Shown here piece by piece: positions 2,205 to 56,170 of a stretch of 64,000 nt of DNA. Origin of the DNA: Parelaphostrongylus tenuis (lineage: Eukaryota; Nematoda; Chromadorea; Rhabditida; Metastrongylidae); NCBI GenBank assembly GCA_019055375.1, contig JAHQIW010000448.1, positions 1 to 64,000 on the forward strand, read 5' to 3'. The notes beneath the pieces are model-generated. The model saw nothing but the letters and a program-made list of their open reading frames with translations. It was not told the origin of the DNA and did no database searches. How positions within the stretch are numbered: the first letter of the stretch is position 1; every line of letters starts with the position of its first letter. A program made the position numbers and the translations under genes.

Positions 2205-2645
2205 TAACCCATTTGCTTAAAAGATTAAACGAGGAAAAGAGCGTGATTTCGTGTGATGGTGACGCACACGTCCTTCGGGTTCATTTCGCGCGTTCTTGGC
2301 GTTTATACAAAAATGCCTCAAGAGCTTTGTGCGTGGAGACTTTGAATCGTGCGCCAGGATTGTGACAGTCACATCGAAATCTTTGTTGCTGTGTTTTTGT
2401 GTTTTATGTAAACCTAAAGGCTTGGTTTTATCTATTTCAGATTTGCTATATAGATGTTCTTTTATGCGAATGATAATGGTCTGCCGTTTCGCCTATATAT
2501 TCTTCCACGCATGTCTTACATGTTAGCAAATAAATTGTGCCCGATCTCGTACAACCCTCACCCCCTTTCTTCCCGTTAGGGTAGATTATACAGTTTGTGG
2601 TTTTGCACAATCGATCGTAAAGTCTATTGCGAGTCAGCTGATGGC
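2205..2645 (-). mobile_element. Penelope-like element GIY-YIG endonuclease remnant (arm 1 of palindrome)
   Basis: On the minus strand about 2535-2210 translates in two frames into a GIY-YIG nuclease C-terminus: L-T-C-K-T-C, E-Y-I-G-E-T, then K-P-L-G-L-H-K-T-Q-K-H, D-F-D-V-T-V-T-I-L-A and I-N-A-K-N. These blocks match those in the open ORF at 27.4 kb of this window. In PLEs the domain nicks DNA for target-primed reverse transcription. Stops and frameshifts make it non-functional. The flank 2536-2645 also repeats, inverted, at 2808-2880. Confidence 0.82.
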
Positions 2646-2650
2646 GTAGG

Positions 2651-2670
2651 AGGAAGGGGGGGGGGGAGAG
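2651..2670 (+). repeat. poly-G tract in palindrome loop
   Basis: A short G tract interrupted by A residues, lying in the spacer between the two inverted PLE remnants. It is a minor low-complexity feature. Confidence 0.7.
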
Positions 2671-2807
2671 AAATTACAATAACTACCACGGATTTCAAGA
2701 CTGCATCTTTTTAGGCACCTTTTAAACCGCGCTGCTGATTTCGTTTGATATAAATGGCAGTTTGAAGGGAATTCTATTCAGGTGTGAAGTGATGTTCAGC
2801 TGATCCG

Positions 2808-3220
2808 CGATAGACCATATGATCGATTATGCAACAACAGAAAGTGTATAATCTACTCTTAGGGAAAGGAGAGGATTGTATGAGATAAGGTGGAATTTAT
2901 TTGCTAACATGTAAGACATGTGGGATAGAATTTATAGGCGAAACGGGTTTAGACCATTATTCATCCGTATGAAAGAACAAATAGATAGCAAACCTAAAAT
3001 CGATAAAGCAAACCTTTAGGTTTACATAGGGCACAAGAAGTCAACAACAAAGATTTTCATGTGGCTGTCACAATCTAGAGCAGAAATAAAAAAATCCAAG
3101 CGCAAAATCTTGTAGGCATTTTGGATAAACGCCCAAAACCTCAAAATGAACCGGAAGGACGAGTGCGTCCACCATCACGCAAGATCTCGCGCCCTTTCTT
3201 CGTTTGATCTTCTACACCTG
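2808..3220 (+). mobile_element. Penelope-like element GIY-YIG endonuclease remnant (arm 2 of palindrome)
   Basis: Plus-strand mirror of the 2205-2645 fragment. It starts with a leader matching the reverse complement of 2536-2645, then encodes L-L-T-C-K-T-C-G and F-I-G-E-T-G near 2900-2935, and degraded versions of the later nuclease blocks up to about 3215. Internal stops are frequent. The two arms differ by many substitutions, so this is not a recent assembly fold-back. Confidence 0.78.
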
Positions 3221-5830: not shown

Positions 5831-6460
5831 CCATACTCAAATTTCGTTATGCCCAATAATTATTCTTTGAGCCATGCATGTGGTTTGTCATGGGCACTTA
5901 CACAGTGTGATACACGTGTTCCGGCCTTTCAGTATCTCAGCTGCATAGCGCTTTTCTTCTAGACCAATCCATGTTGGTGGAGAATTACACGGAGAAATGG
6001 TAGATATGATATTTATACGTGCCGTCAAGTGATTGAAATTGTCGAACGGGTAGTGTTCTGCATTCTACTGTTCTTGGCTGCAATTGTGAATATCATAGCA
6101 TTTGTTTCGCGTGTTTTCTTAGAACTACATCAGCATTTTAATGTGTCGGATGCTTATTTTTAGTTGACCACGTGGTCTGTCATAGGCACTTAGATACTGC
6201 AATATACGTGTTTCCGCCTTAGGAAGTTTGAGAACCTCTCGAGACGAATGATATGATATTTCATAAATACCAGCCAAGAGCAATCGAGTGTGAAACACTG
6301 CCATTTAATGATTTATTTTACTTTATGACACATGTAAATTGGCTCAAGCGAAAGATACCGTGGCTACCGACGAGGCTGAAAGGCCGAAAACACGTGTATT
6401 ACACTGTATAAGTGCTCATAGCAGGCAGCATGCATGACTCAAAAATTATTATCAGGCATA
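5820..6460. repeat. degenerate hammerhead-bearing repeat cluster, mixed orientation
   Basis: Three units of the ribozyme repeat lie here: two on minus with cores near 5905-5945 and 6190-6230, and one on plus with core near 6361-6404. The shared flank (ending in a 'tcaggcata'-type segment and a 'ttttctta' junction) is present. None has an intact core. The plus copy has CCGACGA for CUGACGA, a good GGCU-GAAA-GGCC stem II, an extra A before stem III and no stem I pairing. Confidence 0.6.
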
Positions 6461-6858
6461 CTGTTATTGCTCGGTTAGGGCGTCGAAATGTAATCATCTT
6501 GAATATGTGATTAGCGAAGCTTTAGTGAGCTCTGCTTGGACTTCGTAAATCTTGAGCAGTAATAATCAGAACACATAACCTATATAATTTGCCATTCTGA
6601 TCCTGTCTATGTGCAACTTGTTTCTTTTTAATCTGGAAACAAAAGATACTTTCTAGATTTTAAATTTTGAATTTTCTTTTTGATAAGATTCTATTCCATG
6701 CAAAGTTTTGAATAAGTTAGAAGAGCACCAAAATTTTTCAGTTGTGCATAGTAACTCACTGATATTTTTCTGTAGCTATTGTTTCTTCAAGACAACAGCT
6801 CCAAAAAATCACATAAATGTAATATCCAATCAAGAAGCTCCTTGGCTGATTTTTCGTC

Positions 6859-8824: not shown

Positions 8825-9731
8825 TCACCTTCATCAGCTGTCGTCCCGTTGATCGTTGAGTGACTCGAGCGGGTACCAACAACTCTTCCATTTTTCCCTA
8901 TCGGCGTGCAAGAGTAGCCCAGTGGGTCCTCCTCGTTTCAGAGATTCGCTGAGCATCATTTTTTTCTTCTATCGCTTTCGTGAAGAAATCGGACCAAGCG
9001 GGTCAGTGGTCTTCCTTTAGAGAGCTTGACGTCCCGTGAAATCCAGTCGGTAACGGCTCTCGTCCATCGGTTGTCGTTGAAGCGCATCACGTGTCCGGCT
9101 CCACCTTATTTTCGATATCCTGGCATGTAGAACGGCGTCTCTGATTTTCGATCATTGACGCAGGTCGGAACTTCGGATCCTTTCTCTCATTTACGAGATT
9201 GTGGATACTCCTAGCATCAATCTTTCGACTGAGCGTTCAATAACGCCAAGTAATCTTTCATTCCGCTTACGTAGCGACCAAGTTTCCGCTGCATACGTCA
9301 GAGCAGGGATTATCGTCAAACCGAAAAGGCGGGTATGGAGTCGGATGTTCCTTGTCCTCTTCACTACATCTTCAATGCCCTTAAACGTCTCCAAGCCGCT
9401 CGTTTCCTCCTGCTCAACTCTGGAGCTAGGTCGTTCATCATGTTGACTTCACCTCCTATGTAAACGTAACAAAAGCAATCTTTTTTTCCAAAGAGCAAAA
9501 ACGATTTTCTTTCCGTTGAGCGTGAATGAGCATTCAAAACCCATCCGTTCCTCATGAACATCGTTTTCATAGGATCTAGTTGAAGACCAATCTTTTCATA
9601 GGCGCTGTCGAAATCGGTTAGCATTCGTTTGGCTTGACTGATTCTTGGTGTTATGAGGATTATATCACCAGCACAGCGAAGGTAGGTTAATTGTTAGCCG
9701 CCTATTTTCACTCCCATATTGTCTCATTCTC
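8825..9731 (-). mobile_element. RTE 3' half, minus strand
   Basis: Minus-strand translation runs from the segment just before RT motif C to the 3' end. The catalytic F-A-D-D reads C-A-G-D, so the first catalytic Asp is Gly. It continues through S-Q-A-K-R-M-L-T-D-F-D, the M-F-M-R-N-G-W block, a Y-I-G-G-E-V block and A-L-T-Y-A-A-E-T-W-S to the common 3' end near 8830. The copy is inactive. It is head-to-head with the plus-strand copy at 9732 and forms an inverted repeat with that copy's 3' half. Confidence 0.85.
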
Positions 9732-11345
9732 ATAGCCATGTCCTCCTATTGTCATATACATTGAAAGAGGACGAATATGTCGTCCCACCGGTCCTACCTT
9801 CCGAAATCCGACATGCTATATCGTCGGTGAAGAACAGAACAACACCCGGTCCAGACAGGATTAGACCAGAACATCTGAAGAATCTGCCGCCAGTTCTCAT
9901 CAACACCTGGCTCGGCTCTTCACTCGCTACCTGTCAGAATGCAAGGTCCCTATTCAATGGAAAACCAGCAAGACCGTATTGTTGTTCAAAAAGGGAGACC
10001 TTCACGACATAGGCAATTATCGCCCAATCTGCTTGCTGTCCGTTGTCTATAAACTCTTTACTCGAGTCATCCTAAACAGGATTGACAGAACACTGGACGA
10101 AGGACAGCCATGCGAACAAGCAGGGTTCCGAAAAGGATTTAGTACCATGGACCACATCCACACGATTACAAGACTCATGAAGTTTCGACGAGAGTACAAA
10201 CAACCACTCTGTCTCACTTTCATCGATCTGAAGAAAGCCTTTGATTCAGTGGAAACAGAAGCGGTTATAGAGGCTCTGGATAACCAGGGCGTCCCTACTC
10301 GGTACATAATGATCCTTCGTGAGCTTTATAAAGATTTCACGACCAAAATATCTCCATTCTACAACAATATCACCATTGACGTAAGAAGAGGGGTTCGACA
10401 AGGCGATACAATTTCGCCAAAACTATTTACTGCCACCCTACAAAACGTCATGCGAACATTAGAATGGGACGAAATGGGAGTGAAAATTGACGGTCGACAA
10501 TTAAACCATCTTCGCTTTGCTGACGATATCGTTCTCATAACACCAAACATCAGCCAAGCGGAACGAATGTTGACCGATTTCGATAACGCCTGTGGAAAGA
10601 TTGGTCTTCAACTGAATCTAACGAAAACAATGTTCATGAGGAACGGATGGGTTTCTAATGCCCCATTCACGCTCAACGGAACGACAATCTCCGAATGCTC
10701 CAGTTACATCTATCTAGGTCGTGAAATCAACATGATGAACGACCTAGCTCCAGAGTTGAGCAGAAGGAAACGAGCGTCTTGGGGAACGTTTAAGAGCATC
10801 GAAGATGTAGTGAAGAGGACAAAGAACATCCGACTCCGTGCCCACCTTTTCGACTCGACAATTATCCCTGCCCTAACGTATGCAGCAGAAACCTGGTCGC
10901 TACGTAAGCAGGATGAAAGATCACTTGCCGTTATCGAACGCGCAGTCGAAAGGTCGATGCTAGGAGTATCCTGTATTTCGCAAATAGAGACAAGGATCCG
11001 AAGTTCCGACCTACGTCAACGATCGAAAATCAGAGACGCCGTTCTACACGCCAGGATATCGAAAATAAGGTGGCCGGACACGTGATGCGCTCCAACGACA
11101 ACCGATGGACGAGAGCCGTTACCGACTGGATTCCTCGGGACGTCAAGCGCTCTAAAGGAAGACCACTGACCCGTTGGTCCGATTTCTTCACGAAAGCGAT
11201 AGAAGAAAGATATGATGCTCAGCGAATCCTAGAGCGAGGAGGACCCACTGGGCTACTCTTGCACGCGATAGGGAAAAATGGAAGAGTTGCTGGTACCCGC
11301 TCGAGTCACTCGACGATCAACGGGACGACAGATGATACAGGTGAT
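9732..11345 (+). mobile_element. RTE, 5'-truncated, best-preserved copy
   Basis: Begins in the linker before RT (S-H-V-L-L, K-E-D-E-Y-V) at about 9733 and runs through the whole RT and C-terminal region to the family 3' end near 11340. The endonuclease is absent. Two frameshifts separate three open stretches: about 9719-9905, 9979-11085, and 11070-11369 (G-H-V-M-R, W-T-R-A-V-T-D-W-I-P-R-D, G-R-P-L-T-R-W-S-D). Adjacent minus-strand RTE pieces lie at both ends, so it sits in a nested or rearranged cluster. Confidence 0.88.
9979..11085 (+). CDS. RTE-clade reverse transcriptase (368-residue ORF)
   Basis: Longest ORF of the window. RT copies element RNA at a nicked target site. Visible blocks are N-Y-R-P-I at residues 13-17, motif A F-I-D-L-K-K-A-F-D at 81-89, R-Q-G-D-T-I-S-P-K-L-F at 140-150, motif C F-A-D-D at 180-183, and Y-I-Y-L-G-R-E-I at 243-250. 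All three catalytic Asp residues are present. The first Met is internal: homologous coding continues upstream in another frame to about 9733, and the C-terminal part continues downstream in another frame after a frameshift near 11070. It is therefore a fragment of a multi-domain polyprotein and is unlikely to work alone. Confidence 0.85.
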   Translation: MLFKKGDLHDIGNYRPICLLSVVYKLFTRVILNRIDRTLDEGQPCEQAGFRKGFSTMDHIHTITRLMKFRREYKQPLCLTFIDLKKAFDSVETEAVIEALDNQGVPTRYIMILRELYKDFTTKISPFYNNITIDVRRGVRQGDTISPKLFTATLQNVMRTLEWDEMGVKIDGRQLNHLRFADDIVLITPNISQAERMLTDFDNACGKIGLQLNLTKTMFMRNGWVSNAPFTLNGTTISECSSYIYLGREINMMNDLAPELSRRKRASWGTFKSIEDVVKRTKNIRLRAHLFDSTIIPALTYAAETWSLRKQDERSLAVIERAVERSMLGVSCISQIETRIRSSDLRQRSKIRDAVLHARISKIRWPDT

Positions 11346-12440
11346 TGTCTCATTCTAATGTTCGCATGACGTTTTGAAGGGTGGGCAGTGAATAATTATT
11401 GCAAAATTGTATCGCTGTCGAACCCCTGATATGATGTAGAATGGAGATATTTTGGTCGTGAAATCTTTATAAAGCTCACGAAGGATCATTATGTACCGAG
11501 TAGGGACGCCCTGGTTATCCAGAGCCTCTACAACCGCTTCTGTTTCTACTAAATCAAGGGCTTTTTCACATCTATCAAAGTGAGACAAAGTGGTTGCTTG
11601 CACTCTCATGAAACTCTGATGAGTCATGTGATCGTGTGGATGTGGTCTATAGTACTAAATCTCCTTCGAAGCCCTGCTCGTTCGCATGGCTTCCCTTCGT
11701 CCAGTGTTCTGTCAGCCCTACTTAAAATGATTCAAAAGAAGAATTCATACAGAACTGACGGCAAGCAGATTGCGCGATTATTGCCTATGTCGTGAAGGTC
11801 ATCCTTTTGAACAACTATACTTTCTTGCTGATTTTCCATTGGGTGGGAACCTTGCATCTGACAGGTAGCAAGTGAAGAGCCGAACCAGGATGTTGGTGAG
11901 AACTGCCGGCAAGTTCTTCAGATGTTCTGGTCTAATCTTGTCTAGACTTAATGCTGATCTGTCCTTCACCGACGATATAGCATGCTGGATTTTGGAAAGG
12001 AGGACAGATGGAACGACATATTCATCCTCTTTCAATCTATATGACGGTGAGAGGACATGGCCAGCGAAGAGATCCGAGTAGTATTATTGGATGATTTTTT
12101 TCCATAGCCCTTCTGGAGCCTGTAAGTGTCCCGTCAGGGCATCAGAGTGCAATCGTCTTGGTCTTGTAATTGGTGAAGCTTCATTGGGTTTTGCAGTTGC
12201 TCTTCCCAGCTTTCGTGGCTTCTGCGACAAGCGCGTGTTCGTAAACATCCGCGCACTTGGCGTACATAGAGCCAAAGTGAAGATATCCAACGAGCCGGTC
12301 GTATTGTTCGTCGATGTTGTCGACAACGGGATCTTTCCAAGAGCCGACTAACGATTTGAAAAGTACCAATTCATGGTTGTTCTGGGACTTAAAACGCTCA
12401 TAGCAGTGTACATTTAGAAGGGAAGCCACCGCGACGACTT
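11346..12440 (-). mobile_element. RTE middle fragment (endonuclease end to RT motif B)
   Basis: Minus strand: about 12429-12181 encodes the end of the endonuclease and linker (S-L-V-G-S-W-K-D-P-V-V-D-N-I-D-E-Q-Y-D-R). About 12035-11799 gives K-E-D-E-Y-V-V-P-S-V-L, and about 11627-11355 gives motif A remnants with D-R-C-E-K-A-L-D and D-F-T-T-K-I-S-P-F-Y. It stops at the start of the family segment before F-A-D-D, directly abutting the 3' end of the plus-strand copy. The two pieces are therefore separate insertions or a rearrangement. Confidence 0.82.
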
Positions 12441-19194: not shown

Positions 19195-19450
19195 AATTGT
19201 CTTTTGAGCCAAGCATGTAGTCCGTGATGAGCACTTATAGAGCCCAATACACGTCTTTCGGCTTTGGCAGCCTCGTCAGTTGGGCAGTATCCCTACGTCC
19301 TAGCCAGTCCTCTTTTGGACAATTCAACTCTCTTATATAGCGTAGGCGACGACGTACCATATACATCTGCTGTTAAGTGAAAGAAAATCTTTGTCCTACG
19401 GAGAACACATGTGTGTAGAAAAGGATTTTCAGTTTTTCCGTGCTACAGCG
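19195..19450 (-). repeat. hammerhead-bearing repeat unit (retrozyme-like)
   Basis: Minus-oriented unit of the roughly 330-bp family, carrying the ribozyme at 19285-19242. It shares with other copies the 'tNttNgagccaNgcatgtNgtc' flank on one side and the 'tagccaNtcctcttttgg' flank on the other. Confidence 0.72.
19242..19285 (-). ncRNA. hammerhead ribozyme, type I (one stem III mismatch)
   Basis: Minus strand 5' to 3': stem I GCCCAA; core CUGACGA; stem II GGCU, loop GCCAA, AGCC; core GAAA; short stem III GACGUG; cleavage triplet GUA; stem I UUGGGC. Stem I is 6 perfect pairs and stem II 4 perfect pairs. Compared with the copies at 29 kb (GCCCGA/UCGGGC and GAUC/GAUC), both helices changed sequence while keeping pairing. 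The one defect is G for C at the second stem III pair. Confidence 0.8.
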
Positions 19451-21309: not shown

Positions 21310-21690
21310 CTATGTTTTGACATACATTCACGAGTTTCGACCTTGGCAGTCTTACCAGTCGAGCAGTACCCTTCGTCTTTAGCCAATCCTCTCGGGGGAA
21401 CCCAACCCCTTAAGACATGGCGACGCCGAACTTTTTACACGGTGCCATTGAGTGAAATATCACTGAATGAAAAGTGTTGTACACTCGATTTGCTCTTGGC
21501 TAATATCGTTCAACATATCACAGCTGTCGTTCAGAGTGTTTTCTTGAGACACGCTCAAATTTCAATATACCTTATGATCATTTACATATAACTATAACCT
21601 ATAACAGACCACATGCATGCCTCAACAATGATCATTAGACATACTGAAATATGAGCGTGGTCTTAAGCATTCGAAACGAATGGTATGATA
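21310..21690 (-). repeat. hammerhead-bearing repeat, decayed core
   Basis: Minus-oriented unit with the ribozyme position at about 21370-21325. The core reads CUGGUAAG in place of CUGANGA, so it is not a functional hammerhead, although the downstream CCAAGGUCGAAAC part survives. The unit continues to about 21560, where a second unit end begins ('ttttcttgagacacgctcaaatttcaatat'). A short inverted end follows up to 21690. Confidence 0.65.
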
Positions 21691-23025: not shown

Positions 23026-23840
23026 TACCCTTTCTCGTCTTTTGCTCAAAAATGATTATTAGGCTATTATTAGTAAATGTAGTCCTAAACAAAAAATTCG
23101 ACAATCTCTTAAGCAAATCACAAAAACAGCTTTCACAAGACATCAAAGTACCTTTCAAGAAAGTCCCAAAACTCGATCTGTGCTTGATAATGTGCCAGAA
23201 AAATCAAGGGTCACCGTATTGGGAGGCATGACTCTTCCTGAGGACGCGCGCTCACTATTAGAACTGAGTCCAAGCTTCTCACCATTGCAGCCCACTTCTA
23301 AAGAAACCCTGCGTAGGATCGCGTGCAGTCTGCACCAACTTCATGACAAACTTCTTTACAGAGCAAAGTTAGACTCATTGCACAAAGTGGGAAAACAAGA
23401 AGTAGGAGCAATTCCAACACGTCCTTTCCCTCGGACGTTTTTCAGACAACAACAATTCAACGATAAAGTTGATTACAGATTTCGCAATTTTTCGATCGAT
23501 GCTCAGAAAATTCTCAATCACTATCGTTGTGAAAAAACTATCCCAACCTCACACCCACACAAAATGTGGCTTACGTAAGGTCTGAGAACTAATAATATCT
23601 AAGACTATCAGACCATCAGTTAAGGACAAAGGCGGAAAGTTTGTTGTAATCCTTCGTCAGTTGGATGTCAGTAATACGGAAAAACATCTAGAAGACCGTT
23701 CCCTATACTGCCCATCGTCTGTTAAAGAATTTCGAAGTCAGTACCGAGAATTAACCACGGAATGGGCCCAATTGGCAAGAGCAGCAAGTTTGAAGCAGTC
23801 ACACTCAGCATTCTATTTATGCCAAAAAATTCGTAACAAC
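23026..23840 (+). mobile_element. Penelope-like element N-terminal fragment
   Basis: Three open stretches encode the N-terminal region typical of PLE polyproteins. The first (23180-23578, 132 residues) has V-T-V-L-G-G-M-T-L-P and L-L-E-L-S-P-S-F-S-P, then H-Q-L-H-D-K-L-L-Y-R-A-K-L and P-F-P-R-T-F-F. After a frameshift come K-G-G-K-F-V-V-I-L and L-D-V-S-N-T-E-K-H-L-E-D-R-S-L-Y-C-P-S-S (23661-23830). The homologous K-G-x-x-S-V-I-I block also occurs at the start of the 45.4 kb PLE. RT proper and the endonuclease are missing. Confidence 0.8.
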
Positions 23841-23919
23841 GTTCAACTCTATTATGACAACATCATACGGGTGCATGGAAGCACTACATTGCGTATTTTG
23901 TTCAAATATAAATAAGTAC

Positions 23920-26900: not shown

Positions 26901-27380
26901 ATGGCTTTCATCAAAGCATATAGTGAAACCATTAAAATTCCCTTTTACCAGTCATGAAAATTCACTCAATAAATCGAACAGTTTCAGGTGTTTTTTTGCA
27001 ATATCTTCGGATTTCTTGGCTCTGGATATGAAGAAGAATGTGTGAAACACAGCAACATATCCCAAAAGTGGTGAGAAAGCAAAAGATCAACAATCAATGT
27101 TTATCAGACCTGTCACCTTATCGGGATGTGCCCACCAACTACAATAATTCATGCATGTGTAGTTTCTTTTCATTACATCAATAAATCACTTTCCAAAATA
27201 GTCTCCTATAAAGTTTCAAAAAGGCAGTGCTGCATTGCTAACAGGCTTGCCCTGATGATTGTGATGAATTCTACTCTGGAGGACACTATTACTTGGGTAA
27301 CTTTTACGTTATAGAACATTCACAATATCACAGTGGTAACAGCGAACGTATGAGATGAGGTACTTTTTAGTAATGAGGAG
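23920..27380. other. long stretch without recognisable genes
   Basis: AT-rich sequence. Open frames at 24.06-24.52 (both strands overlapping) and 26.25-26.47 show no family blocks, no consistent splice phase and no ribozyme, PLE, RTE or SINE signature. It is probably intergenic or an old unrecognisable repeat. Confidence 0.45.
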
Positions 27381-27386
27381 AGCGTC

Positions 27387-27692
27387 ATGTTTGCGTGTAG
27401 CGATAAATATATTGGCGAAACGGGTAGGCCGCTCTATGCCCGTATAGAAGAACACCTAGCTGATAAGCGTCTTATAAGACGGAACACCCCGTTAGGGACG
27501 CATAGAGAACAGAAACACGACGGAGCTGATTTTGAGATTGAAGTCACCATCCTTGCGCAGGAACAAAAAACATCAGCGCGAAAACTTCTTGAAGCACTTT
27601 GGATTAATACCACCAATCCAACTATGAACCGCAGGGAGGAATGCCTTGTTATCACACGTGATTTTAGTCAGTATATAAGACTGTTATTTTGA
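27387..27692 (+). CDS. GIY-YIG endonuclease domain of a Penelope-like element
   Basis: A 101-residue open frame. It shows K-Y-I-G-E-T-G-R-P-L (the YIG half of GIY-YIG) at residues 7-16, R-I-E-E-H at 19-23 with the conserved Arg, T-P-L-G-T-H-R-E-Q-K-H at 35-45, F-E-I-E-V-T-I-L-A at 49-57, and L-L-E-A-L-W-I-N at 66-73 with the expected metal-binding Glu. It ends with E-E-C-L-V-I-T-R-D. This is the C-terminal nuclease of a PLE polyprotein, which nicks target DNA for reverse transcription. The first half (G-x-Y block) and the whole RT are missing upstream, so the Met start is artificial. No internal frameshift is visible. Confidence 0.85.
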   Translation: MFACSDKYIGETGRPLYARIEEHLADKRLIRRNTPLGTHREQKHDGADFEIEVTILAQEQKTSARKLLEALWINTTNPTMNRREECLVITRDFSQYIRLLF

Positions 27693-28035
27693 TGTGTAAG
27701 GTGCATTACGAGCCTATGTGATCTCCTTGCGGTTGTCTCCACTTGAATCATTCAGTGGAACACATATAAAAAGCGGTGAGTATGTTGAGAGTTGATTTTG
27801 TGCTTGATGCGATTGAAATCTAGGTCTGGTGATTTTTTCTAAAAGAGTGTTGGAGGTGTTTGGCTTATTGGATTGCGGACAATTTGACCTTTCCAGGCTC
27901 TGAAGAAGGCGAACTGCCGAAACGTCAGCTGTGAATAAATTTTATTATAACACCTCGTGTTTTGCTTAAAGAAGAAAAACAGTAATTATATTGAAGCATG
28001 CCGAGGTTAATAGACAGTCGGTCTTGGGAATTGTA
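27693..28035 (+). mobile_element. Penelope-like element 3' untranslated region
   Basis: Directly follows the GIY-YIG stop. It is shared with 34.51-34.79 and 46.15-46.31 kb (plus) and with 16.93-17.28, 41.19-41.54 and 62.56 kb (minus). It contains the hammerhead-like motif at 27893-27930 and ends in a segment 'gccgaggttaatagacagtc' that recurs inverted at 16.9 kb. Confidence 0.78.
27893..27930 (+). ncRNA. hammerhead-like motif of PLE 3' end (incomplete)
   Basis: Reads GGCU, CUGAAGA, A, GGC-GAACU-GCC, GAAA, C, GUC, AGCU. Both conserved core boxes, a 3-bp stem II and a 4-pair stem I (GGCU/AGCU, one G-U) are present, with GUC as the cleavage triplet. Stem III has no loop, so a single strand could not fold canonically. 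Only a dimer or a non-canonical form could be active. The same motif recurs in every PLE 3' end of the window. Confidence 0.45.
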
Positions 28036-28039
28036 ATGA

Positions 28040-29039
28040 GGAGACTTTTGAAATTCGACCTCATTCGCTTGTTAGGAACTTTTCATAGCAGCATTAGTAG
28101 CCATTCGAAAGCTTAAATCTCTGGCTACAGCCCTACATAGCCGATTCTTGAAAAAACCACCTTAATTGTAATGGTTTAAAATTTAGAATAAAATCACGAC
28201 TACGCGCTTATTTTTTTCTTAGCGCACTTATAATTCGCTGGACAAAACTCCTTCCTTAGGGTGCCAGCACTCATTCGATACCACAAATTTCGGAAAACTT
28301 GAAAATATGCTTGCTTTTTGGAAAAGCTCTCGGATAGAGCTGTAGGAGTAAAAAAAGATTTGTGTTTTGAACCTTGTCTGCTTATTTCCTGGAAATCCCG
28401 ATTAGCAGCGAAAGTCGATCAAGCTTCACGTTTTTGGTTACGTTGTTTACAGGCTATTCGACAAGACGAAGACCAGGGCAGGAGGCAGGCAGTGACTGAG
28501 TGGTCGACTGCGTTTGAAATATGGTTATTCAATTGGGGATTTTTTTCGCCGCATCGGCAGAAACTCCGGGCAGAAACGTATAATTCTGATACTACGAAAA
28601 ATTTCCTACACGCTGATATGCTTTTCGTGCTTTCAGCGATATATGCACCTACAGAAGTGAAGGCACACGGCGGGTATTGAACATGTTTTTTTTTTCGAGA
28701 TGCTGCATCGTTATAAAAGGATCTCATGAAAAACCAGCGGCGTAGAACTGTAGCTTCAAGCCTCAGCTTTCGATGACCACTAATAATTCTATAGAAAGCT
28801 CATGTTGAGCTTATGAGGTAGGTTTTCACCTGTCCCCTTATGATTAAAAATTACAGAGATGAAAATTGACCATCGCTGATAAAAATTGAGATTGACTCTT
28901 GGAAAAATGTTGGGTTAGAGCAAGGTGGCTGTCCATACATAATGAATCATGAAGATCCAAGAAATTACAATATAAATAGAAGTAGAACTTTGAAACTAAC
29001 CCTATGCAGATAAATGAAATAATAATTCAAGAAATCTAA
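28040..29039. other. no gene; unnamed interspersed repeats
   Basis: About 28060-28300 resembles, inverted, and 28555-28800 resembles, direct, the unnamed repeat at the start of the duplicated blocks (12.54 and 59.10 kb), with shared blocks 'gctgatatgctNttcgtgctttNcagcga' and 'tcgttataaaaNgat'. The 120-residue frame at 28318-28680 overlaps this repeat and has no homology blocks. Confidence 0.45.
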
Positions 29040-29161
29040 GGCCTAACATATCTTTCATTTCGAGTGTTTTCTTAAGACCACAGCTCAAATTTCAATATGC
29101 CTGATAATCATTATTTGAGCCACGCATGTCAGTGGTCTGTCAATGAGGGCTGACTTATAGA

Positions 29162-29204
29162 GCCCGATACACGTGTTTCGATCTTGCGATCTCGTCAGTC
29201 GGGC
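29162..29204 (-). ncRNA. hammerhead ribozyme, type I, intact
   Basis: Minus strand: GCCCGA, CUGACGA, GAUC, GCAA loop, GAUC, GAAA, CACGUG, UA, UCGGGC. Stem I has 6 perfect pairs and stem II 4 perfect pairs closed by a GNRA tetraloop. Stem III is a short self-complementary CACGUG, and the cleavage triplet is GUA. All core residues match the hammerhead consensus. Confidence 0.9.
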
Positions 29205-29492
29205 AGTTGCCCTTTCTCGTCTATTGCTAATCTCTGCATTGACTGACCACTGACATGCGTGGCTCAAATAATGATTATCAGGCATATTGAAATTTGAGCT
29301 GTGGTCTTAAGAAAACACTCGGAATGAAAGATATGTTATATTAAATATACTAGCCACGAGCATTCGAGTGTACAACACTTTGTGTTTGGTGAGTTCTTCA
29401 CTGGACATAGAGTGTAAATGTAGGTCGTAGCTAACTCTTATTGTGGGGACTGGAGCACCCACAGAGATTAGCAAAAGACGAGAAAGGCAACT

Positions 29493-29535
29493 GCCCGACT
29501 GACGAGATCGCAAGATCGAAACACGTGTATCGGGC
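29493..29535 (+). ncRNA. hammerhead ribozyme, type I, intact
   Basis: Plus strand, identical in sequence to the minus-strand ribozyme at 29162-29204. Stem I is GCCCGA with UCGGGC, stem II GAUC with GAUC around GCAA; cores are CUGACGA and GAAA; the cleavage triplet is GUA. It lies inside the direct repeat of about 330 bp. Confidence 0.9.
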
Positions 29536-29747
29536 TCTATAAGTCAGCCCTCATTGACAGACCACTGACATGCGTGGCTCAAATAATGATCATCAGGCAT
29601 AAGGCCTAACACTTATGTAGAGCGTTGCCCGCTTTGTTTGATCAAGACGTGGTCAAGAAAGATAATCAAGTTCCTTGGCAGTGTACTAGGCAATGTATGA
29701 GCACTCAGAATAAATTGTATAACTTACGTCTATCTAGAGCCCATCTA

Positions 29748-32357: not shown

Positions 32358-32581
32358 GAATCGTATCCTCATTCATCCTATCCGGGGACGCGTGCTCTAC
32401 CACGACACCACCGACGCACATTTGCACCACCACTCATTCTTCAACATCTCTATGTTAGCTATCAGCCACGAATCGTATCCTCATTCATCCTATCCGGGGA
32501 CGCGTGCTCTACCACGACACCACCGACGCACATTTGCACCACCTTTCATTCTTCAACATCTCTATGTTAGCTATCAGCCAC
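32358..32581 (-). repeat. 112-bp tandem duplication of a tRNA-like repeat
   Basis: Two near-identical 112-bp units (32358-32469 and 32470-32581) in direct tandem. Read on minus, each has a tRNA-like pol III promoter: an A-box-like 'tggtgtcgtggtagagca' and a B-box-like 'gatacgattcccgc'. The flank at 32311-32357 matches one terminal inverted repeat of the element at 43.80 kb, so this is a rearranged copy of that family. The low divergence suggests a recent duplication. Confidence 0.8.
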
Positions 32582-45369: not shown

Positions 45370-47350
45370 AGTATACACTTGATCAGGAGTTTATAGGATG
45401 AAAACCTATCCGACTTTCATCAGTGATAAAGGTAGAGACTCAGTAATCATTTCAGATAATTGGATATTGAATTAAAAGAAGAACATCTCCAGGATACTGG
45501 TCTTGACCGGCTACTTTTCGAAAAGGTATATGAAAGTTAATACCAAAAATTTGAATAAAGAATGGATCAGCACGGCAAATGCCGTGTGTTTACTCCGTCA
45601 TTTTCCCTCTCAAAAATGATGCTCTAAATTATCTGGTCATATACCCAATCAACAAACTGCATAAGCTAACATCTACTAATGATTGTGTGTTAACCGATCA
45701 ATCAACATTCAAATTAGACCTATCATCAGCTGTGTAGGCAAATCTACAAATAGTGTGACACGGATGTTGGCTCTAATTATTGCTCAGGCGCTCAAATCTT
45801 ACCATTTTATTTGTCGAATACAAAAATACTTCTAAATTACCTACTGTGCGCGCATCTAAATAATTCGCAAGTGATAAAGTCATTTGATGTTACCTCCCTT
45901 TATACTGGCGTATCAAATTGCTCTGCATTGCAAGCCCATCTCGAACTTGATATGGAACATGAGAAAAATATAAATATGCATTGCTTATCATTCAAGCAAC
46001 TAATGCCCTTATGAAGCAATGTATCAATTGCTCAATCTTTCGGTGGTTAGGAAAATATTTCATGCAACTTAGAAAGTTAGGCATAGATCAACAGTTAACA
46101 ACACAGAGGAGGTCTGCCATCTGGAATCATTAGAATATGGATTAACTAGGTCTGGTGGTTTTTTCTCAAAGAAGTAATGGAGGTGTTTGATCGATTGGAT
46201 TGCAGACAACTTGACCTCTGCAGGCTCTGAAGGAGGCGAACTGTCGAAACGTCAGGTGTTGAATAAAGATATTGTATAAGACTTTGTGTTTGGCTTAAAG
46301 AAGAAAATTAGGAATTATCAACAGCTGGCTTCAACTCCTGCCATCACTTTTATGTGTAAGGTGAAAGCTCCAGTTTTCGTTAACTACCGATTGCTCTACA
46401 GTCGATGCATAGACGACTAATTCATTGTCTGTACCATACAAGAGGAAGTGGACAGATGTTTCGATGTTTTAAACGGGCCTTCAAAGCATATAAAGACTGC
46501 ACGAAGAAGTACAATCAAGAACTGGCTCCCGTGAACGAGAAATTTTAGAGATTTAGAAAAAGCTTCTAGAAAGTGACTACAATACAAAATGATACCATAT
46601 CAAATAACAAAAATGTATCAGTCCAAAGTTTTCTCTCATCCTTCACACATGAAAGCGACGATCAAAATAAGTACCGAGCAATTGAAAATGTGTGCCCAGT
46701 CAAAGGAGTTTAACGAATTGTTGTAGTTCACTCAAAAACAACCATTTCTATTGTCTAAGAATCATCAGCCATTGTGATAAGTCCAAACAGTAGAATTAGT
46801 TTCAAATGAATATTTCACGACTAAAATAACACTCCTTTCAAACTTCCATTTACATAACAAAATTAATAGCGCTATCATGAGATGCCCCAAAGTTGTGGCC
46901 TTGAAAATTTTGTCATACTCCACCTTCAACACTTCCTGCCAAGTAGTCACGATTACCTTTACGACTGATTATGCAACTCTAGAATTTGTATAGTCTAGAG
47001 AGAGGTTGTATTCTTCTGCATAAAATATATTTAATAACAGGCAAGATATGAGGGAATGGATACATTGGCGAAGCGGTTAGATCATTCTGTGACGGCATAA
47101 AAGAGAATCTATATGATAGATTCAAAATTGGAAAAGAGAACAAAACCACAACGGTAAAGATTTCAAAGTGACCACCAGGATGGCCCAAGAATCAAAAACA
47201 TCAACGGACACGGCCCATGAAGCTTTTTAAGTGTAGATTTTAAATATCCAAAAAATCGAGAGGACAAATGAATCACGGTCACTCGAAACATAGGACTTTT
47301 CTTCGTTTGATCTTTCCAGGCTGTGTATGAAAGTATTGATGAACCACGAA
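45370..47350 (+). mobile_element. Penelope-like element, nearly full length, decayed, with nested 3' end
   Basis: Plus strand in changing frames. N-terminal S-D-K-G-x-x-S-V-I-I lies near 45410. RT blocks: R-P-I-I-S-C-V-G near 45715; N-T-K-I-L-L-N-Y-L-L, then F-D-V-T-S-L-Y-T-G-V (motif A) near 45890; C-I-N-C-S-I-F-R-W near 46025. After an inserted 46150-46310 segment, RT resumes with L-L-Y-S-R-C-I-D-D (motif C, usually Y-x-D-D or Y-I-D-D), F-I-V-C-T and F-D-V-L-N. The endonuclease G-Y-I-G-E-A is near 47060, followed by decayed later blocks to about 47300. Stops are numerous. Confidence 0.8.
46150..46310 (+). mobile_element. PLE 3' UTR with hammerhead-like motif, nested in PLE RT
   Basis: Matches 27.83-27.98 kb (ctNggtctggtgNttttttctNaaag, then the motif caggctctgaaggaggcgaactgtcgaaacgtc written in pieces: CUGAAGG, AGGC, GAAAC, GUC). 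It interrupts the RT between motifs A/B and C. Short similar strings (tcaacagNt) flank it. Confidence 0.72.
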
Positions 47351-52950: not shown

Positions 52951-54319
52951 AGTTTCAGTTCCCGCCGACAGTGGCGCGTGCCGAGAAGAAGTGCAATCCA
53001 AATGGACCCGATGTTAGCATTCGAACGGCTCCATCCACTACACTTTGCCACATCATTCTCGACCAATTTGCCATGATGATGTTTGTTGTCTAAATAAATT
53101 TTTTACTCTTAAAGCGAGCTTATTAAAAAAATGTAAATCAAACCGAGAGAGCTCCAGAAATTGACGTGTAGTTGATCGGAACGGCCATTACACTCACATC
53201 TGCAGGTGGGTCGGAACACTTCTTTGTTTCCCTTTTAAGAGCGCAAATTCCCGTAACCGTGCTGCCGGCGATAATGCAGCGCTGCGAAATCTTTCCTGCA
53301 TCCTTCTCGACTACAAAAAGCCACAATTTTTGGGAATTTGCTTTCTTCTATTGCAACAAATCTGAAAAATGCTGAGAACTGTTTTCGGCATTGACATTAT
53401 CAATATTAAACAAAATCCTCTGAAGCATCACCTTACAAATCGACTACTATATCATTCTCAGGAAAAGATGCATAGAAGCATATTTGGAAAAGTACCTTCG
53501 ATTCTAAAGTTTTAACTTTAGTGCCATGGTGATCTTCTGATATTATAGATTAGTTTCTGATTACTTTGTGCAAATTTTTTCTGATGGACAGAAAAAGCAG
53601 CGCCGCCTTTTTGATGCCTGTTATACTGCTGTTCGAATTTCCAAGCTGGTTTCCATTATTGTCGACTCACCCATTTCCTCTAGGCTGAGCGCAACTCCCT
53701 GGCATTCCAATGGCTTGTAAGCGACGTAACATTAAGTTGACCCAAAATAGCAGAGATTATAGCATCAGGTAAAAGTGCACTACGAGCCTGACGTTCGAGA
53801 ACATCAAAGACCTCAACAACAATTTTTTGAAATTTCAGCAAGATATAAATCATGATAGAGTTAGGAGGTTTACGATTTGTTGGAAAACTGAAGCTCACAT
53901 TCTGTGCCTTTCCAAAATTCATAAAATGGAACAATCTACTCGGAAGAGCTGACAACTTACTGTTTGTGCCACAAGACGTTGTACAAATGCCTGGACCCCT
54001 CCTCTGTCATGTGCAATACCAGAAACCCGCGCTGATTCTCCTATATTTCGTGTGCAAACCATCGCAACAGGTAAAGAAAACCGTCTTACGGTGAAGGTCC
54101 TGGAGCTTGCTACAACAAGATGCTGTAGTTTTTCTCAAATTTAAATGGTCACAAGATGATTTACTTTATGGAAAATTTTTCGATCTTAATCACGCTTCTT
54201 ATTTCAAATTTACAATCTCTTTATTAGAAGCCTCTGATTACGATCGCTTTTAAGCACTGATGAAGTGGCTGATATATTTATTCTAATTTTATTCTATTTA
54301 TTCTAATTTTATTTTATTT

Positions 54320-54535
54320 ATGACATAGACACCTGACATAGAGTGGAAAGCGTAGGTCGTCGATAACTATATATGAGGAGTGTGACGCTCCCAAGAGAAC
54401 TGACTATGAAAAGATCGACAGACGACGGGTTCTGCCCGGCTGATGAGTCTGTAAGGACGAAACACGTGTCTCGGGCTGTACAAGAGCCTTTACCAGACCA
54501 CATGACATGTTGGCTCAAATAATAATGAAAGGATC
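54320..54535 (+). repeat. hammerhead-bearing repeat unit within intron 1 of copy B
   Basis: Plus-oriented unit, similar to 29.40-29.60 kb: 'gacatagagtgNaaaNgtaggtcg' upstream and 'gaccacatgacatgttggctcaaataataat' downstream of the ribozyme at 54434-54476. It lies inside the first intron of secreted-protein copy B, antisense to that gene. Confidence 0.78.
54434..54476 (+). ncRNA. hammerhead ribozyme, type I, intact, divergent stems
   Basis: GCCCGG, CUGAUGA, GUCU, GUAA loop, GGAC, GAAA, CACGUG, UC, UCGGGC. Stem I has 6 pairs (one G-U), stem II 4 pairs (one G-U) closed by a GNRA tetraloop, and the cleavage triplet is GUC. Differences from the 29-kb copies fall in N7 of the core, both stem II strands, the loop and the H17 position, all changes the hammerhead consensus allows. 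Confidence 0.9.
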
Positions 54536-54702
54536 TAATTTTAGTATAAAACTTTGCCTCAGTTTGAAAATCTCCGTAGTAAAATGTCAACATTGTGTTC
54601 TTTACATTGTCCTGTAGGCATTATGCCACATCCCAGTACTGTCGAAAATGTGATTAACAGCGAAATCATAAAGAGATCACTCAAATGTATTGCCATGCTC
54701 AT

Positions 54703-54718
54703 TTTTGTTCCTGAAAAC
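54703..54718 (-). promoter_or_regulatory. probable spliced-leader trans-splice acceptor
   Basis: Minus strand gttttcag immediately followed by gaacaaaa and the ATG at 54702: an 8-base 5' UTR behind a consensus nematode 3' splice site. The same arrangement lies upstream of copy A at 38753, which supports both start codons. Confidence 0.6.
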
Positions 54719-54870
54719 ACATTACATATTTAGTTGAAAGCAAACTTTACATTCGTAGTATGTAATCGTTCATATAAAAAACGAATCTAGTACTCAGCAT
54801 TTATATGCAGTGAATCTCAATCGGTTAATTCGAAGAAAAATGTTCTTGTCAAATTTAGAATGAGACTGGA

Positions 54871-54905
54871 AGGAGGTGGGGGGGGGGGGGGGGGGGGGGC
54901 GGGGC
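54871..54905 (+). repeat. poly-G tract (22 G in one run)
   Basis: An uninterrupted run of 22 G, then C and GGGG. It lies between secreted-protein copy B and the 54.95-55.20 kb repeat. Confidence 0.85.
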
Positions 54906-54949
54906 AGTGAAACTTTCAATAAAGGAAAAATTTCCAGAATGTGCAGATT

Positions 54950-55200
54950 CTCCAGGTGTCATGGAATGAATTTTGCTCCCGCCTTTGCATTTCTGATGAT
55001 AAGACATAAAATCCCAATTTTCCCAAAAATAAAACGCTGGAAATCGAGAATGAGCTGTCATTACAAATGCGTGTTCACGAGAAAATCTGTAAAAAAAAGT
55101 ATCGAATGTTGAAAACGAGCTCAAATTCAATGCGAAGCGTTTTTGGCAACAAATTCCCAAAAATCAAAAATAGTGATTGCTGAACTTCGATGTTCCCATT
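54950..55200 (-). repeat. partial relative of the mariner-derived arm
   Basis: Contains, in order, 'ctcccgccttNgcatttctgatg', 'gaaaNtgagNNgtcattNcaaa' and 'tgNaNttcgatgttc', which match 44.20-44.36 kb with moderate divergence. The transposase part is absent. Confidence 0.45.
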
Positions 55201-55559
55201 ATCCTCTTGCAAACTTCTTTTGCTGACGGAGAAGCTTGCTGGTAGTTAAAGCAAGATTTTTGCATAATTTCACTGAACGAGTCAGGTACAGGTAGAGAAT
55301 GAGGTGTCACCAAAAATCCACTATTGAGAAGAGGAAGAATAGAATATGTCTGGATTTGTCGCAGGGAAAGACTAGTGCATTGCGTCATCAGGTTTTGTTG
55401 TGAGTATAGATGTAGTGTATTGCGAGAAAATGGACGTTTTAGAAAGCGCGACGGACGTGATACTGAACTGAGGCATTCTGAGATGCAAGGTAGATGTTTA
55501 TGAACGCTATCAATTCCTTGAAATCTCTCCGCAATGTGCAAACAAAGGAATATCTTTTG

Positions 55560-56170
55560 TTTGTTTTTTTTTTTCAAAACCACGCTAAATCTCAATATGC
55601 CTGATAATTGTTTTTGGGCCATGCATGGGTCTGCTATGGGCACTTATACAGTGCTATACACGTGTTGCGGCCTTCCAGCCTCGTCAGATATACAGTGCAT
55701 TTCGTCTAAGGTAATACCTTTTGGGGGAATCCCTATTACATGTAGGAATTGCAGACCTACTCCTTACACGCTCCATCAAGGGAAAGATACCACTAAATGG
55801 GCAATGTACACTCGATTGTTGTTAGCTGGTATTTGTGATATATCATAGCTTTCGTTTCAAATGCTTTCTTAAGGACAATCCCAAGTTTCAGTATGCCTGA
55901 TAATTAATTATATTGCCCATTTAGTAATATATTTCACTCGGTGACGTATGTAAAGATTACGGCTACGATTCCTATGTAAGAGGGGCCTCTCTTAAAAGGG
56001 ATTGTCTCGGACGAAAGTTACGGTGCAACTGACGAAGCTGGAAGTTCGAGTCACGTATATTGCACTGTATAAGTGCCTAAAATAAGCCACAAGCATGACT
56101 TCAAAATAGTTATCAGGCATAAAGAAAAATCTTTTATGTCTTATTTCGAATAGTATTCTCAGAGAATTCT
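55560..56170. repeat. retrozyme-like cluster with two decayed hammerheads in opposite orientation
   Basis: Minus-oriented unit with core at 55693-55651: CUGACGA and GGCU-GGAA-GGCC are kept, but GAAA reads GCAA and stem I does not pair. The unit end ('cNaNtNtcaNtatgcctgataatt') recurs at about 55598 and 55891. A plus-oriented core lies at 56023-56065: stem I GUGCAA/UUGCAC is perfect and CUGACGA kept, but stem II and GAAA are mutated. Neither should cleave. Confidence 0.72.

Follow-up and report, generated by a model that had tools for sequence, protein, structure and literature searches.

The 64-kb stretch of DNA analysed here (the window) carries a hammerhead ribozyme, designated copy A, within a single truncated repeat arm. 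The arm and its candidate target-site duplications were placed as follows.

54302 to 54311, forward strand: candidate left target-site duplication TCTAATTTTA (tentative)
54334 to 54536, forward strand: single putative retrozyme arm of subfamily f3A, running from monomer position 118 to end position P1 (203 of 319 nt, 93% identical to the monomer of locus L042)
54434 to 54476, forward strand: hammerhead ribozyme copy A, identified by its match to Rfam RF00163 (Hammerhead_1) and by covariation, with a GUC cleavage triplet and a palindromic stem III, ACACGUGU
54534 to 54543, forward strand: candidate right target-site duplication TCTAATTTTA (tentative)

The TCTAATTTTA duplication is tentative because the word is repeated at 54282 and 22 nt separate the left word from the arm. 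Copy A has an intact core (CUGAUGA...GAAA), a stem I of 6 bp including one G-U pair (GCCCGG/UCGGGC) and a stem II of 4 bp including one U-G pair (GUCU/GGAC) with the GNRA loop GUAA. The Rfam covariance model RF00163 matched copy A end to end (model positions 1 to 45) with 34.9 bits, the gathering score being 34, and an E value of 5.5e-5. This was the sole gathering-level match within the 64 kb, and no further hammerhead was found in the window by Rfam at E ≤ 5. The initial annotation had described an intact type I hammerhead with this core, these two stems, a GNRA loop and a GUC triplet, and had proposed a covariance-model search of the window as a check; the match above the gathering score agrees with that description.

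Stem III, which the same annotation had called short, is indeed so, since the self-complementary ACACGUGU has no loop and only about 2 bp are possible intramolecularly. The minimum-energy fold of the 64-nt RNA of copy A alone was not a hammerhead, which is consistent with a weak stem III. The loop-less stem III and this fold together suggest that the ribozymes likely act in pairs. In 2017 Luense et al. reportedly found that small hammerhead variants with a diminished stem III cleave as dimers. The sections of PMC7761336 covered here are in line with action in pairs for variants of this type. These variants resemble the ribozymes described here in the very short stem III and in the link to Penelope-like elements (PLEs), but they are minimal, whereas stem I is extended here and has a 6-nt bulge, possibly in contact with loop II. 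Past this bulge, the outer stem I reads GGGUUCU/AGAGCCC in A-type copies and was paired in 72% of cells.

Three more copies with an intact core were present in the window, all below the Rfam cut-off, together with five degenerate ones.

29493 to 29535, forward strand: hammerhead copy B, with a GUA triplet and stem II GAUC/GAUC
29162 to 29204, reverse strand: hammerhead copy C, identical in all 43 letters to copy B
19242 to 19285, reverse strand: hammerhead copy D, with stem I GCCCAA/UUGGGC, stem II GGCU/AGCC and a GUA triplet
55592 to 55785, reverse strand: degenerate copy E, divergent from copy H
55944 to 56122, forward strand: degenerate copy H, lost under stricter search settings
5846 to 6035, reverse strand: degenerate copy F, divergent from copy G
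6366 to 6462, forward strand: degenerate copy G
21327 to 21441, reverse strand: degenerate partial copy I

Stem III of copy D, AGACGUGU, contains one mismatch. Among the intact window copies stem I varies between GCCCGG/UCGGGC and GCCCAA/UUGGGC, and stem II between GUCU/GGAC, GAUC/GAUC and GGCU/AGCC, so that pairing was preserved despite the letter changes. The window also contains, at 32358 to 32581, a tandem duplication with a 112-bp unit, 98% identical.

The genome assembly containing the window comprises 481.5 Mb in 5105 contigs. The exact core pattern CTGANGAN{8,20}GAAACACGTGTH had 11,521 matches in it, and the reversed pattern had none, which rules out a chance origin of the core. The description of the locus as a dispersed nematode repeat is supported by this number and by the reverse transcriptase of an RTE element in the window, whose best named relative was a Parelaphostrongylus tenuis protein (96% identity over 84% of the query). 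The host is thus probably P. tenuis or a near metastrongyle. The Rfam search of the genome at E ≤ 1e-3 gave at least 31 matches (74 scored out of 119,811 candidates); as the window copy was absent among the matches listed, the list falls well short of the full set. A second family, f1, with a 285-bp monomer, accounted for the 30 loci retrieved from these matches.

Covariation was determined with 61 genomic copies (55 distinct) that were chosen by the core pattern, so that the conservation of the core in this set is by construction. The pairs of the hammerhead were formed in 83.5% of cells, compared with 74.0% after shuffling; double-sided changes numbered 96 against 45.8 ± 5.1, and the covariation score was 0.313 against 0.177. 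None of 500 shuffles reached the observed value in any of these three measures. Partners shifted by 1 to 3 columns gave at most 46% pairing. The number of pairs with a double-sided change (13 versus 10.8, reached by 57 of 500 shuffles) and the number of additional pair types (31 versus 30.7, reached by 277 of 500) did not go beyond the shuffles. Stems I and II thus covary across the 61 copies in three of five measures. As judged from the covariance model and this covariation, the hammerhead is real and structurally constrained.

For the analysis of insertions, 60 loci from searches and 20 fetched as stretches were combined with 5 window loci, and 7 overlaps or duplicates (L004, L006, L032, L037, L043, L047 and L049) were omitted before end statistics, leaving 78. 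All but L054 gave hits, so that 77 loci were available. At L040 and L044 the scored cluster is a neighbour of the hammerhead that had fetched the locus. L003 and L004 (G000:C821:12500 and 31757) mirror each other on a single contig at a distance of 19 kb; both have an f1 hammerhead, and one of the two was kept.

The monomers measured 285, 319 and 320 bp with a GC content of 0.43 to 0.44, within the retrozyme range of about 150 to 450 bp and low GC. Arms of more than one monomer numbered 33 out of 131 and were present in 29 of the 77 loci (for example L016, L039 and L079), which points to a circular or multimeric template. The longest circular frame from M to stop was 18 aa in f1, 33 aa in f3B and 168 aa in f3A, the last in one reference copy: the single 319-nt monomer of L042, read as a circle, has an open frame of 168 aa that takes more than one lap. 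Judged by size, ribozyme and tandem units, the repeats are to be classed as retrozymes. The earlier use of this term therefore stands for the family and fails for copy A, whose arm covers 203 of 319 nt and, being truncated and having one ribozyme, would not by itself release a monomer or circle.

The arrangement of the arms was mostly divergent. The 3' ends pointed outward in 48 of the 77 loci, while 28 loci, including copy A, had a single orientation and one was mixed. Core-pattern neighbours less than 600 bp apart formed 16 pairs among the first 100 places listed, of which 11 were divergent, 1 convergent and 4 on the same strand. The window contains one locus, at 29044 to 29600, that displays the full form.

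29037 to 29048, forward strand: left target-site duplication TAAGGCCTAACA, 12 bp
29044 to 29236, reverse strand: left arm of the divergent insertion, subfamily f3B, ending at P2 and thus with the tail
29237 to 29600, forward strand: right arm of the same insertion, exceeding one monomer and ending at P1
29600 to 29611, forward strand: right target-site duplication TAAGGCCTAACA, 12 bp

The outer ends clustered at two positions, P1 and P2, which lie 45 to 60 nt apart and both 3' of the ribozyme. One P1 and one P2 end were present in 37 of the 48 divergent loci, two P1 ends in 1 and an end elsewhere in 10; both outer ends could thus be classified in 38 divergent loci, and they were unlike in 37 of these. 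As the positions of P1 and P2 in this count were derived from the same loci that they score, centres were also taken from one half of the loci and scored on the other, which gave P1 plus P2 in 30 of 48 loci and no same-end pairs. Without any centres the outer ends were non-uniform (KS p of 5e-7, 5e-10 and 0.0095). The sequences GGCTCAAA and TTTGAGC (up to 2 changes) flank P1 in most of 74 stretches. A conserved hairpin at P1 was considered and discarded, as it was missing from the minimum-energy fold of the 2 retrozyme stretches folded, and it is not relied on.

The inner junction was distinct in 48 of 48 divergent loci at a resolution of 6 nt, and arm starts were compatible with a uniform distribution (KS p of 0.12 to 0.26). 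Three arms started at the cleavage site, against 3.9 expected; this lack of a pile-up means that ribozyme cutting left no trace here. The cleavage site was crossed by 44 of 57 arms lying off the locus centre, and 2 of the 57 started within 4 nt of it. Altogether 112 of 131 arms read through the site, a figure that is partly by construction because the loci were chosen via the hammerhead; for the same reason insertions from cut linear monomers escape detection.

Shared flank words of at least 9 bp, taken as target duplications, occurred in 30 of 76 loci (the word at L016 being false) compared with 2% of shuffled pairs, in flank windows that contain 12 to 14 nt of element per side. The duplications were AT-rich in the retrozymes and in the PLEs of the same genome (0.77 and 0.74 in the two sets), and no clear common target motif was found in the duplications of 18 retrozyme loci and 13 PLE pairs. 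The median length was 12 bp in both, but this equality is weak evidence, because the subsets were hand-picked (words of at least 9 bp for the 18 loci and of at least 11 bp for the 13 pairs).

PLE fragments lie in the same window, one of them with its 3' region.

2220 to 2673, reverse strand: older, diverged PLE endonuclease fragment, an arm of the divergent palindrome at 2218 to 3214 (72% between arms)
27354 to 27689, forward strand: PLE fragment, coding end of the GIY-YIG endonuclease (Pfam PF01541, E value 1.3e-4, score equal to the cut-off)
27900 to 27926, forward strand: hammerhead-like core in the PLE 3' region, CTGAAGAAGGC...GCCGAAACGTC
27975 to 27995, forward strand: P1, cluster of PLE outer ends
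28029 to 28037, forward strand: P2, cluster of PLE outer ends, measured on the window copy, which ends about there

The core at 27900 to 27926, which we take to be a PLE-type minimal hammerhead, had no Rfam match at E ≤ 5. The segments 23586 to 23912 and 45754 to 46011 presumably encode PLE reverse transcriptase, to judge by their motifs; neither gave a Pfam reverse transcriptase domain, and both had collinear hits in L069. The left flank of L069 has, by eye, the look of an inverted PLE end, in a nested or chimeric insertion.

Many endonuclease relatives in the genome were 97 to 99% identical among the best 150 of 16,079 candidates. These 150 included 24 neighbouring pairs less than 6 kb apart, and all 24 were divergent. 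Three pairs were left out of the end analysis: C3410:313 and C18:348, whose left end would fall off the contig, and C1257, which has no right stretch. Both outer ends were read in 21 pairs, which served as a positive control: 19 of them combined P1 with P2, and the remaining 2 combined a P2 end with another position (27939 and 27913). P1 and P2 were set from the first ten pairs (9 of 10), and eleven later pairs gave 10 of 11. Long PLE arms part from one another at P2, except that those of L088 and L089 do so about 11 nt further on in the alignment; the stretch from P1 to P2 is referred to as the tail. Flank words of at least 8 bp were shared in 16 of 21 pairs, against 3.9%. L099 and L100 form a young PLE pair that lies, by eye, within an f3-type hammerhead repeat near P1.

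Retrozymes and PLE have the order hammerhead, P1, P2 in common. The distances from the cut site (as placed by us) to P1 and P2 were about 44 and about 92 nt in f1, 66 to 68 and 117 to 126 nt in f3, and 49 to 69 and 103 to 111 nt in the PLE. The sequences at P1 and P2 of the retrozymes and of the PLE had little in common. Most of the loci examined were inserted in the manner of PLEs, with ends, junctions, duplications and form common to these elements: divergent arms with two starts and one tail were present in 37 of 48 loci (30 of 48 by split halves) and a target duplication in 30 of 76.

The repeats might instead be SINE-like and mobilised by the abundant RTE non-LTR retrotransposon. RTE is certainly plentiful: there were 25,651 candidates, of which the best 150 were scored, at 95% identity or more, and the RTE copy at 9700 to 11353, inserted into an RTE copy of opposite orientation, has a 13-bp duplication (ATTGTCTCATTCT); from this one case, duplication length does not discriminate between PLE and RTE. 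The window RTE copies that reach the 3' end, however, stop at a single place (equivalents of 11315 to 11345). Among the best 150 RTE copies there were no neighbours less than 6 kb apart, the nearest being 9.2 kb apart, against 24 divergent pairs among the best 150 for PLE; both lists consist of the best-scoring copies. The two-ended divergent form separates PLE from RTE, and mobilisation by RTE is improbable. Foldback or MITE-like DNA transposons holding a hammerhead, with the palindrome as the mobile unit, would account for long inverted repeats and target duplications. Their termini would match, whereas 37 of the 48 divergent loci had unlike outer ends, the inner junction was never the same twice in 48, and 29 of 77 loci had an arm of more than one monomer. 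The unlike ends and varying junctions led us to reject such a transposon, for which we see hardly any chance. Chimeric inverted repeats are a familiar artefact of amplified DNA, and the divergent arms could in principle have arisen during whole-genome amplification or assembly. Such artefacts would lack fixed end positions in the monomer and duplications of unrelated host flanks, and this explanation is very improbable.

The repeats could also be solo pseudo-LTRs of a PLE family with the same hammerhead, not separate elements. The common order of hammerhead, P1 and P2 with similar spacing fits this explanation, as does L069:876-1146, where an f3A arm adjoins PLE reverse transcriptase coding at the P2 end. 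Against it, the hammerhead repeat and the PLE at 27354 to 28031 were unmatched in self-comparisons of the window (E ≤ 0.01 for 53601 to 55400, E ≤ 1e-6 for the whole). PLE coding was found in the fetched flanks of only 7 of 73 retrozyme loci, and the reverse transcriptase plus GIY-YIG coding of an autonomous PLE was not found for the repeats. L016, L039 and L079, moreover, contain tandem monomers without a coding part. We consider the pseudo-LTR explanation unlikely.

We therefore favour, with a probability of roughly 0.78, the reading that the repeat is a metastrongyle non-LTR retrozyme whose circular or multimeric RNA is inserted by PLE protein. Tandem copies would be transcribed and their hammerheads cut, probably pairwise in view of the loop-less stem III. 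The monomers would then circularise, or uncut multimers would serve as template. As the duplications suggest, the PLE endonuclease-reverse transcriptase would make a cut in each strand of an AT-rich target, with about 12 bp between the cuts. To judge by the end positions, reverse transcription would begin inside the template, at P1 for one DNA end and at P2 for the other. Both cDNAs would run back along the template, stop variably and join head to head, as read from the junctions, and the outcome would be divergent arms with the P1-P2 tail on one only. Both the PLE protein as mover and the circular template are what we infer from the form of the insertions.

Cervera and de la Pena (2020; PMC7229834) described metazoan non-LTR retrozymes and, in the sections covered, named PLEs as a strong candidate for the mobiliser on the grounds of hammerheads in common, tandem copies and co-occurrence. 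As far as these sections go, their retrozymes are like the repeats here in the type I hammerhead and in tandem, low-GC monomers of about 300 bp without a reverse transcriptase of their own. They are tandem repeats, however, whereas 48 of 77 loci here were divergent and had two favoured end positions, along with duplications of about 12 bp. Neither of the strings 'inverted' and 'nematod' appears in the main text of that paper. Literature searches, with most subscription papers outside their coverage, found no report of a nematode retrozyme and no PLE end signature on retrozymes.

Further parallels come from the GIY-YIG PLEs. According to the sections of PMC11167929 covered, both DNA strands are cut by purified Anolis PLE protein, and its reverse transcription begins at two internal sites next to each other; the genomic 'tail' of 30 to 40 bp spans the distance between these two starts, the start site is alike on both strands, and the hammerhead is dispensable for insertion in vitro. 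The covered part of PMC3846280 describes PLE insertions of a rotifer: the pLTRs are inverted and one of the two has a 31-bp tail, the junctions are palindromic, and duplications of 8 to 10 bp are present in some insertions and absent from others. GIY-YIG PLEs in these two sources are thus like the repeats here in the inverted arms, the tail on one arm, the short duplications and the two reverse transcription starts 3' of the hammerhead. They differ in that PLEs have reverse transcriptase and endonuclease coding and minimal hammerheads, whereas the repeats have no such coding and an extended, bulged stem I, and in that the tail is 30 to 40 bp in the Anolis PLE but 45 to 60 nt here. Since no strand difference and a tail of 30 to 40 bp are described there, the rule of one end of each kind and the tail of 45 to 60 nt are left unexplained by the purified PLE as covered.

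What is new is the mode of copy insertion, and the PLE insertion form on these repeats, which was out of reach of the initial annotation, is the more informative observation. At the level of single loci, the end signature connects retrozyme insertion with the PLE mode, RTE serving as a contrast, and a parasitic nematode is added to the retrozyme hosts. The signature, namely one P1 and one P2 end, a variable junction and a duplication of about 12 bp, is applicable to any retrozyme genome, and retrozyme RNA with P1 and P2 is a defined candidate substrate for purified PLE protein. It seems rather likely that animal retrozymes are PLE satellites, in which PLE protein copies one circular RNA at two neighbouring sites from both DNA ends. 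If this is true, each insertion would consist of two arms joined head to head, exactly one of them with a tail, and the genome record, with more than 10,000 matching ribozyme cores, would be direct evidence for the long-suspected mobiliser.
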